From IMG/VR virus record IMGVR_UViG_3300017783_000059, positions 1-41,458 of that record: 41,458 bases of DNA, one strand, 5' to 3'. The notes under the pieces were generated by a model. It did no database searches and was not told the origin of the DNA. It was given only the letters and a program-made list of their open reading frames with translations. Positions 1,702 through 6,150 of the stretch are shown here, in pieces. The stretch's first letter is position 1; the number at the start of each line of letters is the position of its first letter. This DNA is from a virus. Position numbers and translations under genes: made by a program.

Positions 1702-1750
1702 AGAGCAATTATCTTACATAGGTATTACTCTCAAAGAAACAATAAGTATA

Positions 1751-1796
1751 GTTTTCCACAACCTTTTCCACAGAAAGGTATCAAATTGTGGAAAAC
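1751..1796. repeat. Perfect 11-bp inverted repeat with 24-base spacer
   Basis: GTTTTCCACAA at 1751-1761 is repeated as its exact reverse complement at 1786-1796. There is no T-run after the right arm, so it is unlikely to be an intrinsic terminator. Both arms contain the 9-mer described in the DnaA-box entry, and a third direct copy sits in the spacer. Confidence 0.75.
1752..1795. promoter_or_regulatory. Cluster of three cyanobacterial-type DnaA boxes
   Basis: TTTTCCACA occurs exactly at 1752-1760 and 1764-1772 on the + strand and at 1787-1795 on the - strand, three copies in 44 bases. This 9-mer is the accepted DnaA-box consensus of cyanobacteria (compare TTATCCACA in E. coli). An AT-rich run (about 1801-1830) follows directly, as DNA-unwinding elements do at bacterial origins. 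The cluster lies in a gap without a convincing gene (1702-1989). It could be a replication start, a site that titrates or recruits host DnaA, or a regulatory site for the gene at 1990. Confidence 0.55.
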
Positions 1797-1936
1797 ACGG
1801 AGATTAATTAAATATGTAAATAAATCTTAGTTTGTGTTGTATTCCTCTTAAATGTTTCCGAGAGATGTAGTCTTAGCACGTTTCCTAACGATACACAACC
1901 CCCAACATATAAGGACTTCAAATGTGTAACAACCCC

Positions 1937-1965
1937 TTGACAATCCTCCGAGAATGCTGTATAAT
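1937..1965 (+). promoter_or_regulatory. Exact-consensus sigma70 promoter
   Basis: TTGACA (1937-1942) and TATAAT (1960-1965) are both perfect and are separated by exactly 17 bases. The expected start point near 1972 leaves a leader of under 20 bases, including an AAAGG ribosome site, before ATG 1990. This looks like an early phage promoter read by host RNA polymerase. Confidence 0.85.
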
Positions 1966-1989: not shown

Positions 1990-2187
1990 ATGAGGTACAT
2001 CATCTTCAATGAAGAGAAACAAAAGGTCGGAGAGTTTACATCAATCTATGACCTCGAATTATACCTCGATGGTGTAAGAGAGGGAAGGGGAGAAAGTTAT
2101 CCTATTACAGAGAGAATGTCTCCCTTTGATTATCTCAAATCAATTCGTTGGTTTATGACAATAGACGATCAAATCTTAAGTGCTTAA
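1990..2187 (+). CDS. Hypothetical protein, 65 aa, from a strong host-type promoter
   Basis: The frame is open from 1954, but an ATG there would lie inside the promoter spacer. ATG 1990 is chosen because it follows the predicted transcription start and an AAAGG ribosome site. The product (MRYIIFNEEKQKVGEF at its start) alternates short strands and an acidic helix, with SPFDYLKSIRWF near its middle. It has no Cys, no membrane segment and no motif I recognise. A tiny protein behind an exact sigma70 promoter is what is expected of an early host-takeover protein, but that is inferred from context only. Confidence 0.6.
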   Translation: MRYIIFNEEKQKVGEFTSIYDLELYLDGVREGRGESYPITERMSPFDYLKSIRWFMTIDDQILSA

Positions 2188-3072: not shown

Positions 3073-3240
3073 ATGTCCAAGAGATTCACAATCACTATCG
3101 AAGAAAATGAGTTTGGGGAATTAATTTTACCAATACCTGATGAAGTCTGTGAGGATCTTGGATGGACAATTGGGGACGACCTAGAATTTGATGTTGATGA
3201 TGTCACTGGGAGTTTTACTCTTAGGAAAGTTGAAGAATAG
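3073..3240 (+). CDS. AbrB/SpoVT-type swapped-hairpin protein, 55 aa
   Basis: ATG 3073 to TAG 3238-3240. The protein starts MSKRFTITIEE and contains GELILPIPDEVCEDLGW followed by IGDDLEFD. This is the pattern of AbrB/SpoVT/MazE-type N-terminal domains: a strand, G-x-hydrophobic-x-hydrophobic-P, a helix with L-G, then the G-D-x-hydrophobic strand and a closing strand (GSFTLRKV). Such domains dimerise into a swapped-hairpin barrel and usually bind DNA as transcriptional regulators or antitoxins. This copy is unusually acidic overall, which argues against tight DNA binding. I see no toxin partner next to it, so a regulator role is more likely than an antitoxin one. Confidence 0.72.
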   Translation: MSKRFTITIEENEFGELILPIPDEVCEDLGWTIGDDLEFDVDDVTGSFTLRKVEE

Positions 3241-3288
3241 TCAGCAGCGCGACCACAGCGAAAACCACATTTCACCGCTTTTACTCTG

Positions 3289-3576
3289 ATGCAATTTGAA
3301 GAAACTGAAACTTACAAAGAGATTGATGCTAATTTTGTTGCCATCAAGAATAGTTTAGATGATAATGCAGATGCCCATGAGATATTAAATAACACGATTG
3401 TTGCTATCAAGGGTAATATTGATGAGATTGTGAATCATATTTCAACGTTACCTACACCTGATAAGATTTTATATAAACCTGCAGGTGCTGATTATATGAA
3501 TATCAAAGATAATTTTGATTATATTTACAAACGTTTAAATCGATTAGAAGAAACAGTATTCGGAGATAATAAGTAA
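3289..3576 (+). CDS. Hypothetical helical protein, 95 aa, next to tail gene
   Basis: Starts at ATG 3289 and ends at 3576, with the next gene's ATG following immediately. The sequence is acidic and heptad-like over residues 5-55 (YKEIDANFVAIKNSLDDNA; then NNTIVAIKGNIDEIVNHIS), suggesting a coiled coil. It closes with a second helix IYKRLNRLEETVFG. The opening TYKEIDANFVAIK resembles the first lines of phage tail-fibre or baseplate attachment segments (INxNFxxIxxxL), so it may be a small trimeric structural or connector protein of the tail. It is abutted to the 857-residue structural gene, which supports that reading. No family name can be given. Confidence 0.55.
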   Translation: MQFEETETYKEIDANFVAIKNSLDDNADAHEILNNTIVAIKGNIDEIVNHISTLPTPDKILYKPAGADYMNIKDNFDYIYKRLNRLEETVFGDNK

Positions 3577-6150
3577 ATGTCTTGTCACAACGATGGATCA
3601 CCATGTGGATCTATAGGATTTGGTTTTGGAACATCGGGAATACGAAATTCAAGTCATTGTGATGCTAGGCGTCCAGGATCAGTGAATGCATGTACACCTA
3701 TTGATGTACAGATATATCCACCATTAACAATTCCGAGTGGTATTGAGAGGATGCCAGCAGATGCTGTGATGTATGATTCTACGATACAATCACCATTTCC
3801 TCCTAGTTATGGTGGTGGAGTCGATTATTCATCACCTACAGCATCTGCTGATACTGCAGCTGCAAATTGTGGAAAACTTACTCAAGTTGTATCTTGTGGT
3901 TTAATTTCATTTGGAAATGTGCCTACAGGACTGTCTTATCAAGAAATGGATAGTGACACATGGTTTGGTTATTTGTATGATGTTGGTCCTCATGGGGGAG
4001 TAGTTGGCACACCATGTTATCGTCTGCAGAAAGAAACTCGCACAGGATCTTCTAGTAGCACTACAGGTGCAGGACCTGATGGCACTGGTGGCACGACAAC
4101 ACCAGGTCCTGGTGATCAATCATCAAAGACTTTATGTATTCCTTGTAGTCAGTTTTATTGCACACCACAAAGCACGTCTATTAGTTACACATATAATGGA
4201 CCTAATGAAACGGATGATCCAGATTGTCCATACCCAACTATATTTGCTGTCGGATCAACTGCTAATAAGATTGTATTTAGATATGAGTCTTTATCTACAG
4301 TGATTCCAGATACTGTAAATGATATTAACTTTGTATATTCACCTGATGGTATTGATGTTGATGTATGGAATAATAACAATTATAGTGGTGGAGACCCAGT
4401 AGTTACAACACAAAATCCTTGGAAACCTGGTGATGAATCATTTGAGGACTTTGTTATTGTTGAGGGAGAAGATCTTGAGGATGGAGATGCGCTAGGACTG
4501 AAGGTTAAATTCCGAATTGCTCCTATCGTTAGTGGTGCAGGAGAAGTAATTTCCTTTACAGGCACCCAATGGGAGTTTATCGAATTGATTAATGGTGGTC
4601 AAAACTATAGTGTTAATGATACTTTTACATTATCATACACTCGTAATCATACTGATGGCACATCTAGTGAGTTAACTATAGATTTAAAAGTAACTTCTAT
4701 TGGTCCTACGAATTCAGTATCTGCTATTGAAGATTTTTCCACTCTTTCTGAAGGAGATACTGTGAATGGACATACCGTTATTGCAACTAGGCACAGTGAT
4801 ATTGATAATTTTCCGTATCACATTGTGTATATTGATACAAATGGATCAGACTTTGTAAAAGACACGCAATATACATCTAGTAGAAATCATGTTATTACTG
4901 TAGTTGCGGGGTATGGTATTGTAGATCGCGCATATTTTGGTGGATATTATGAGTTTTATGAGAAATCCGTGCAGTATACAGTCCATAATTTAGATGAAGA
5001 ATCTCCAGATGTGTTTAATTCCATCAGACAACCTGATGTTACGGTAAATCTTAGTAATGGCACGGTATCTGGATTCACTATTAACAATGGTGGGGAGGGT
5101 TTAAACAAGTTACCAAAGAAACCTAACCTTGTAATTACCGATCCTAACGTCTCAACGGGGAAAAGTGCTAAGATCAAAGGTAATTTCAGTGGTGGTGTCT
5201 TAACTTCTATCAAGATTGTCAACCCTGGCAGTGGATATTCAAACGCAAATCCGCCTCAGGTGTGGGTTAAAAACGTTTATAGGGAAGATGAGACGGTTAC
5301 GTTTGAAGGAATCTCTCAAAAAGACGCAGTTGTAGACGATTTTATTGAAGAAGTCCGTAAAACGGGCAATTTCCCTGAATTTACCAACGTCAATTCTTCA
5401 GATGCTGGTGCAATTGCGGGAAATGCAGCTAGACAAGAGCAATATACTCAAAAAACACAAAATATTGTGAAAGCAAATCGTAAAGTCAAGCAAGATTTCG
5501 ATACAAATCGCAATATTGAGTTACCTCAAAGACTTTATCGTAGGGATGAAGTGGAAAAATTGCGTGGCACTTATAAAAGTGGTGAATTATTCAAGTATGA
5601 TAGTCCAAATATTAACAGCATTTCGCCAGAATACAGAAAGCAAAATAAATTATCTCAGGATGTTAATGCAAACACATTAAATACCTCAATGGATAACCTT
5701 ATTCAAGATCAAGTTCCTGATAGTGTCAATTATCCAGAGAATTATGTTGAGACAACTCAAAGAAGATTTGTGAATATGCCGCAAGCAACTCCTCTTACGA
5801 AATATACAATTAAACAATACAGAGCAGATCCGCGAGCAGATGCAGAGATAAATATTACTTTAGGATGCACGTTGCTTGAGAATGGGTGTACTCATATGAT
5901 ATCATTGTGTGCATCTCCTGCAGGTTTTCCTACACCCCCAAGCAGCACCACTACATCAGAAACGGATCCTGTAACTGGTGATACGACAGAAACCACTGAG
6001 GCTTTCTCTTATCTGCTTTCTCCACTTCTTGGCACAGGATGTCAAAATTGGACTGCAGTTGGCACGATGAAAATTAGACATAATATGACAAGATCTACAC
6101 TTACATATGCAGAGGCAACTGCAGCATATGGAAATCCATTTGACATTTAG
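3577..6150 (+). CDS. Cys-rich virion structural protein, 857 aa, possible baseplate hub
   Basis: A large protein directly upstream of the PAAR spike tip. The first 230 residues are Cys-rich (SCHNDGSPCGS at the start; LCIPCSQFYCTPQ near 186-198) with a Gly/Thr/Ser linker near residues 154-182. The centre is beta-rich. Residues 490-565 hold two copies of the NPGSGY-type repeat shared with the genes further right. Residues 590-690 are polar and helical (ANRKVKQDFDTNRN). The C-terminus again has Cys (LGCTLLENGCTHMISLCAS), a Ser/Thr/Pro linker and a final beta segment. I recognise no enzyme domain, in particular no T4 gp5-type lysozyme. Its place beside PAAR and upstream of gp25 and gp6 is where the hub gene (gp5) lies in T4-like phages, so a hub role is possible but unproven. 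Confidence 0.75.
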   Translation: MSCHNDGSPCGSIGFGFGTSGIRNSSHCDARRPGSVNACTPIDVQIYPPLTIPSGIERMPADAVMYDSTIQSPFPPSYGGGVDYSSPTASADTAAANCGKLTQVVSCGLISFGNVPTGLSYQEMDSDTWFGYLYDVGPHGGVVGTPCYRLQKETRTGSSSSTTGAGPDGTGGTTTPGPGDQSSKTLCIPCSQFYCTPQSTSISYTYNGPNETDDPDCPYPTIFAVGSTANKIVFRYESLSTVIPDTVNDINFVYSPDGIDVDVWNNNNYSGGDPVVTTQNPWKPGDESFEDFVIVEGEDLEDGDALGLKVKFRIAPIVSGAGEVISFTGTQWEFIELINGGQNYSVNDTFTLSYTRNHTDGTSSELTIDLKVTSIGPTNSVSAIEDFSTLSEGDTVNGHTVIATRHSDIDNFPYHIVYIDTNGSDFVKDTQYTSSRNHVITVVAGYGIVDRAYFGGYYEFYEKSVQYTVHNLDEESPDVFNSIRQPDVTVNLSNGTVSGFTINNGGEGLNKLPKKPNLVITDPNVSTGKSAKIKGNFSGGVLTSIKIVNPGSGYSNANPPQVWVKNVYREDETVTFEGISQKDAVVDDFIEEVRKTGNFPEFTNVNSSDAGAIAGNAARQEQYTQKTQNIVKANRKVKQDFDTNRNIELPQRLYRRDEVEKLRGTYKSGELFKYDSPNINSISPEYRKQNKLSQDVNANTLNTSMDNLIQDQVPDSVNYPENYVETTQRRFVNMPQATPLTKYTIKQYRADPRADAEINITLGCTLLENGCTHMISLCASPAGFPTPPSSTTTSETDPVTGDTTETTEAFSYLLSPLLGTGCQNWTAVGTMKIRHNMTRSTLTYAEATAAYGNPFDI

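Follow-up and report, generated by a model that had tools for sequence, protein, structure and literature searches.

A conserved intergenic element with host-type DnaA boxes is a candidate replication origin of T4-like cyanophages

The locus described here raises the question of what a tight cluster of host-type DnaA boxes is doing in the genome of a T4-like phage. In cyanobacteria, TTTTCCACA is the documented consensus DnaA box; it is bound by domain IV of the Cyanothece DnaA protein, two boxes being needed, and some cyanobacteria can dispense with DnaA (PMC4674748). Exact copies of this 9-mer are clustered in a viral DNA of 41,458 nucleotides (IMG/VR record IMGVR_UViG_3300017783_000059), which was analysed over its whole length and is referred to below as the window. 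The window and Synechococcus phage S-MbCM6 (NC_019444), a Namakavirus in the Kyanoviridae, share 99.8% identity.

An initial annotation of this DNA had reported three exact copies of TTTTCCACA in 44 bases, two of them as arms of a perfect inverted repeat. Both statements were confirmed: the copies start at 1752(+), 1764(+) and 1787(-), and boxes 1 and 3 lie in perfect 11-bp arms, GTTTTCCACAA at 1751-1761 and TTGTGGAAAAC at 1786-1796. Boxes 2 and 3 form a recurring plus/minus pair with a start spacing of 23. The chance of one exact 9-mer had been put at one per 130 kb; in dinucleotide-preserving shuffles of the window the sequence proved commoner (0.72 expected copies per 41 kb, or one per ~58 kb), and the view that three together are striking held, with a shuffle-based chance of ~2e-7 in the window. 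Elsewhere in the window only two lone exact copies occur, at 3868(-) and 11662(-). The looser pattern TTWTNCACA matched the same five sites and no others and was not enriched across the window, and the signal is therefore a local cluster. The lone copy at 3868-3876(-) is in the first coding part of a baseplate wedge gene and has a similar place in relatives, over Cys-Gly-Lys codons; its recurrence there is probably coding conservation.

Table 1. Coordinates of the element, its parts and related sites. Positions are those of the window unless another record is named.
Feature	Position	Strand	Remarks
DnaA box 1, TTTTCCACA	1752-1760	+	exact match; outer arm of 11-bp inverted repeat
DnaA box 2, TTTTCCACA	1764-1772	+	exact match; 12 bp from box 1
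DnaA box 3, TTTTCCACA	1787-1795	-	exact match; adjoins AT-rich stretch
AT-rich stretch, candidate unwinding element	1803-1842	.	85% A+T; same place AT-rich in relatives
Whole conserved element	1792-1935	+	nhmmer profile of 63 cyanophage copies, E 4.5e-19, sole match in window
Conserved 35-bp core, TGTAGTCTTAGCACGTTTCCTAACGATACACAACC	1866-1900	+	kept across cyanophage copies
Putative leftward -10-like TAAGAC, after TGC	1870-1875	-	17-bp, sometimes 18-bp, distance to TTGAC kept across genera
Putative leftward -35-like hexamer	1893-1898	-	TTGTGT here, degraded; TTGAC(A/T) in most relatives
Rightward sigma70 promoter, TTGACA-17-TATAAT	1937-1965	+	12/12 match
Small conserved downstream gene	1992-2187	+	T4-GC_640, phrog_718
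Element in other records	Syn9 ~52.55-52.75 kb; S-MbCM6 ~43.2-43.4 kb		
Loci without box cluster in P-RSM1, P-TIM40 and Bellamy	L288 ~3320-3470; L289 ~5040-5150; L293 ~4730-4840		
Host inverted pair, example	WH7803 1819368-1819420 (L262:1469-1521)		others in L264, L268-L287

The boxes stand at one end of an ordered element, in which they are followed by an AT-rich stretch, a 35-bp core and a perfect or near-perfect sigma70 promoter (Table 1). The AT-rich stretch that had been noted beside the boxes is indeed there, and 40-mers as rich in A+T make up 0.11% of those in the window. The core has the pattern TGTAGTCTTAGCACG-N13/14-GTCAA. An early gene had been placed at 1990; ATGs were found at 1954 and 1992, with the rightward promoter at 1937-1965. 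In S-MbCM6, where the boxes occupy 43206-43249, small genes lie upstream, and T4-GC_640/637 and baseplate wedge genes lie downstream. Rfam gave no match, and inspection of the window by eye, unscored, revealed no clear run of DnaA-trio repeats next to the boxes. A second near-perfect sigma70 promoter (TTGACA-17-TATACT, with TG before the -10) is found at 2666-2694, ahead of a gene at 2850. The identification of a nearby helicase as T4 Dda was rejected, the nearest solved chains being LlaGI/LlaBIII and UvsW-type helicases, matched weakly.

An alignment of S-RIM4, syn9, Syn10, S-H35, S-MS29 and ACG-2014d showed that much more than the boxes is conserved in the same intergenic region. When the core alone was used as the query and boxes were not required, it turned up in IMG/VR contigs and in as many as 193 phage records, which apart from one chance Enterococcus match were all from cyanophages. 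The 63-copy profile identified 130-136 distinct loci in cyanophage DNA, the total varying with the way duplicates were removed, and found a single copy in the whole Syn9 genome, as in the window. Exact TTTTCCACA was present within 250 bp at 73 of the 83 non-redundant loci that were located by the core alone and had enough flank, and 72 of these loci had two or more. The density of the 9-mer was 4.59/kb near the element versus 0.12/kb elsewhere, a 37-fold difference. At least two exact boxes within 60 bp were found at the element in 19 of 26 complete genomes; in S-SSM6b a single exact box is accompanied there by variants. Only two other tight clusters occur in the 26 genomes, in ACG-2014d and S-ShM2, both just downstream of the element. 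Conservation in relatives and confinement to one place, two of the points on which the initial annotation had let its proposal depend, were both observed.

Several further features of individual loci were recorded. The clusters downstream of the element in ACG-2014d (37690/37701; L127:3653-3672) and S-ShM2 (53068/53084; record 53068-53092) are second same-strand pairs at a distance of 0.2-0.9 kb. In the Syn10 core (L128 ~3220-3260), a 17-bp insertion creates a perfect 20-bp palindrome, TTAGCACGTTAACGTGCTAA, from core sequence. Two contigs filed as Gammaproteobacteria and Euryarchaeota MAGs (L198 and L253) contain cyanobacterial or cyanophage psbA at 89-91% identity, and are probably misbinned phage or host DNA.

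The 9-mer stays exact while its arrangement varies: + + - in the window, + - in S-RIM2 and Syn33, + - - in S-PM2 and - - in S-CAM1. ACG-2014d has four minus-strand sites 11 bp apart, two of them exact, and in some relatives the boxes lie between the AT-rich stretch and the core. Adjacent boxes are mostly spaced by 11-13 or 22-24 bp; the most frequent pairs are +-, 23 bp apart in 44 cases, and --, 12 bp apart in 34. At 103 of 113 loci the minus strand carries the box that lies closest to the core. Exact 9-mers at set spacings, in variable order and orientation, suit protein sites and not a fixed hairpin. The variant TTATCCACA of S-SSM6b is also a DnaA box, and its partner lacks a matching change. 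Among single-base variants enriched at the element, changes fell at box positions 1, 2, 3 and 5, with few at 6 and 7 and essentially none at 4, 8 and 9, a pattern of substitutions that broadly fits the DnaA box TTWTNCACA.

The boxes are a frequent, not a universal, part of the element. They were found in 20 of 21 Synechococcus phages versus none of five phages isolated on Prochlorococcus (P-RSM1, P-TIM40, P-SSM2, P-SSM4 and P-HM2), a comparison uncorrected for shared ancestry. P-RSM1 and P-TIM40, although box-less, still have the AT-rich stretch along with a version of the core. Bellamy also has no box cluster, and its profile match is weak (E 0.1). Similarly, metagenomic loci including L302, L336 and L370 have the core and the AT-rich stretch and no boxes; L302 and L370 are nearest to metaG-MbCM1, P-RSM1 and P-RSM4, and L336 is nearest to S-RSM4. 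Since box-less copies exist, DnaA is not essential to the element everywhere.

Read on the minus strand, the core has the form TTGAC(A/T)-17 or 18-TGCTAAGAC. The spacer search had permitted gaps of 10-16, and copies with an AT-rich context had 13 or 14, equivalent to spacers of 17 or 18 bp. The same distance from TTGAC to the -10 was found in 16 of the 17 box-only loci that have both motifs, for which the core was not required, and the cores of S-PM2, S-CAM1 and P-RSM1 keep the 17-bp distance with different intervening bases. The -10 hexamer, TAAGAC, fits sigma70 at three of six positions, and the -35 of the window is TTGTGT. Judged by these motifs, the core read leftward looks like a promoter from which transcription would cross the AT-rich stretch before reaching the boxes. 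No conserved gene is present on the minus strand to the left of the core, and nearly all local genes are on the plus strand. Of the 130 element loci, 88 have a rightward promoter matching at least 11 of 12 positions, compared with 17 of 400 segments drawn at random from Syn9.

On the host side, the DnaA of Synechococcus WH7803 contains the DNA-binding domain (PF08299, E 5.9e-27) and a GKDHTTV motif. A phage-encoded DnaA was rejected, no DnaA_C domain being found in 16 phage genomes. A host origin of the core was likewise rejected, as four Synechococcus/Cyanobium genomes gave no match at up to 3 mismatches. The literature places cyanobacterial oriC near dnaN; the WH7803 oriC at dnaN was discarded as a template for the phage element, as it has no exact boxes and only TTTTCCACG and TTTTCCCCA. 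In the corresponding records (L265/L266) no exact TTTTCCACA occurs within 3 kb of dnaN, and the two variants are at record positions 6-23.

An inverted pair of TTTTCCACA, searched for at allowed gaps of 10-40 bp, is present in 59 of 201 host-family genomes (marine Synechococcus and Prochlorococcus), nearly always with a gap of 35-36 bp. At the loci examined, it lies between orthologous DUF1818 and DUF2811 genes, far from dnaN, and the sequence filling the gap is non-conserved. The 9-mer is thus under selection in the hosts too, and the pair may be an overlooked origin or a site of DnaA regulation or titration.

Taken together, the boxes quite plausibly, though by no means surely, belong to a replication origin, apparently present once per T4-like cyanophage genome, that would combine a T4-type promoter and unwinding element with host DnaA boxes. 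We favour this hybrid origin because the layout, with its putative leftward promoter, is that of T4 oriF/oriG with DnaA boxes added. Early in infection, host DnaA would bind the paired boxes and help to open the adjoining AT-rich stretch. A leftward non-coding transcript from the core would cross this stretch and provide the primer as an R-loop, in the manner of T4 oriF/oriG, after which the phage replisome would load; the strong rightward promoter would drive the neighbouring small early genes. T4-type replication genes (gp41, gp61, gp59, UvsX, UvsY and UvsW) are annotated in Syn9. More tentatively, such a hybrid origin may operate in most T4-like phages of marine Synechococcus, with host DnaA and leftward RNA opening the same AT-rich stretch, the Prochlorococcus lineages having dropped the DnaA part or never had it. 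Neither the GC skew nor the third-codon-position skew of Syn9 has an extreme at the element, a weak test because skew follows gene content there. A single theta origin has been predicted in Syn9 according to a review citing Weigele et al. (PMC2984593).

The lack of universality of the boxes weakens a strictly DnaA-dependent model and leaves transcriptional control by DnaA as the main rival to an origin. Host DnaA at the boxes would then activate or repress the leftward core promoter or the rightward promoter and tie the early genes to the replication state of the host, with no origin involved. DnaA is a known transcription factor, the perfect sigma70 promoter lies 140 bp downstream of the boxes and is kept in most relatives, and T4-GC_640 is often the next gene after the element. 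However, at ~140 bp upstream of this promoter, and in variable position and orientation, the boxes do not resemble an operator; with nearly all local genes on the plus strand, leftward transcription would have no conserved gene to serve; and such control needs neither the AT-rich stretch nor the 35-bp core. We regard it as unlikely. It is improbable that the 9-mers serve a phage-encoded initiator or regulator that shares the DnaA consensus by chance. Such a protein would agree with the phage-specific nature of the element, whose core is unmatched in the four cyanobacterial genomes searched, but the DnaA DNA-binding domain is missing from the phage genomes searched, and the exact host 9-mer together with the TTATCCACA variant would have to be a coincidence.

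The initial annotation had proposed an origin, a trap for host DnaA or repression of the downstream gene. It had mentioned neither the 35-bp core nor the leftward promoter-like arrangement nor box-less relatives. The origin fits best, since the boxes are part of a conserved element that also has an AT-rich stretch and two sites resembling promoters. The boxes may instead repress the downstream gene. The trap, in which replicating phage copies would titrate host DnaA and halt initiation on the host chromosome, fits worse. Clustered consensus boxes identical to that of the host, on DNA that is amplified to many copies, speak for it; yet the strong boxes number just 2-4 per genome and are confined to one element that has further conserved parts, whereas the position of a sink in the genome would not matter and a large number of boxes would be favoured. 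We consider it highly improbable. Scarcely credible is an RNA hairpin formed by the inverted repeat and acting as a terminator or processing site. Boxes 1/3 or 2/3 could pair in a 9-11-bp stem, but folding was no better than for shuffles (z -0.75), no terminator was predicted, the same-strand boxes of many relatives cannot pair, and RNAalifold found no consensus structure on either strand among 63 aligned copies.

Full-text searches of the open-access literature returned no earlier report of DnaA boxes, host DnaA or this element in cyanophage or T4-like origins. If the hybrid origin is real, these cyanophages would, to our knowledge, be the first lytic phage lineage of T4 type for which use of the host's initiator has been shown. 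The element provides an exact, conserved target of ~200 bp for the replication start of the very abundant T4-like cyanophages, and it is testable in laboratory pairs of Syn9 or S-MbCM-type phages with Synechococcus WH7803/WH8102. The difference in boxes between phages of Synechococcus and Prochlorococcus offers a natural comparison. Should DnaA act at the element, the timing of phage replication would be tied to a light-dependent host initiator.

Plasmid origins such as P1 oriR recruit the DnaA of their host by means of boxes that adjoin an AT-rich region. Origins of that type also have a dedicated Rep protein and iterons, whereas neither was recognised at the cyanophage element. Among phage origins, T4 oriF (uvsY) and oriG (34) each pair a promoter with an A+T-rich unwinding element that lies downstream of it, within ~100 bp, and use an R-loop primer (PMC3016281). 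The cyanophage element resembles them in having, in a T4-like phage, a putative promoter with an A+T-rich stretch just past the start; it differs in that the T4 promoter is a MotA-dependent middle promoter, while cyanophages are without motA and asi (PMC2984593). T4 oriE likewise contains short repeats together with a promoter of the early type (PMC3016281), but these repeats are 12-nt iterons of unknown role and not DnaA boxes. T4 itself has several origins, among which no motif recurs, and DnaA goes unmentioned in the origin review (PMC3016281), in contrast to the one conserved motif set plus DnaA boxes of the cyanophages. Cyanobacterial oriC (Synechococcus elongatus PCC 7942, Cyanothece and Anabaena) likewise has clustered TTTTCCACA beside an AT-rich stretch (PMC4674748); compared with it, the phage element has no dnaN neighbour, has fewer boxes, carries a phage-specific 35-bp core and is box-less in some relatives. 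What is new here is thus best called the combination of a T4-type origin layout with host DnaA boxes, both kinds being already known.
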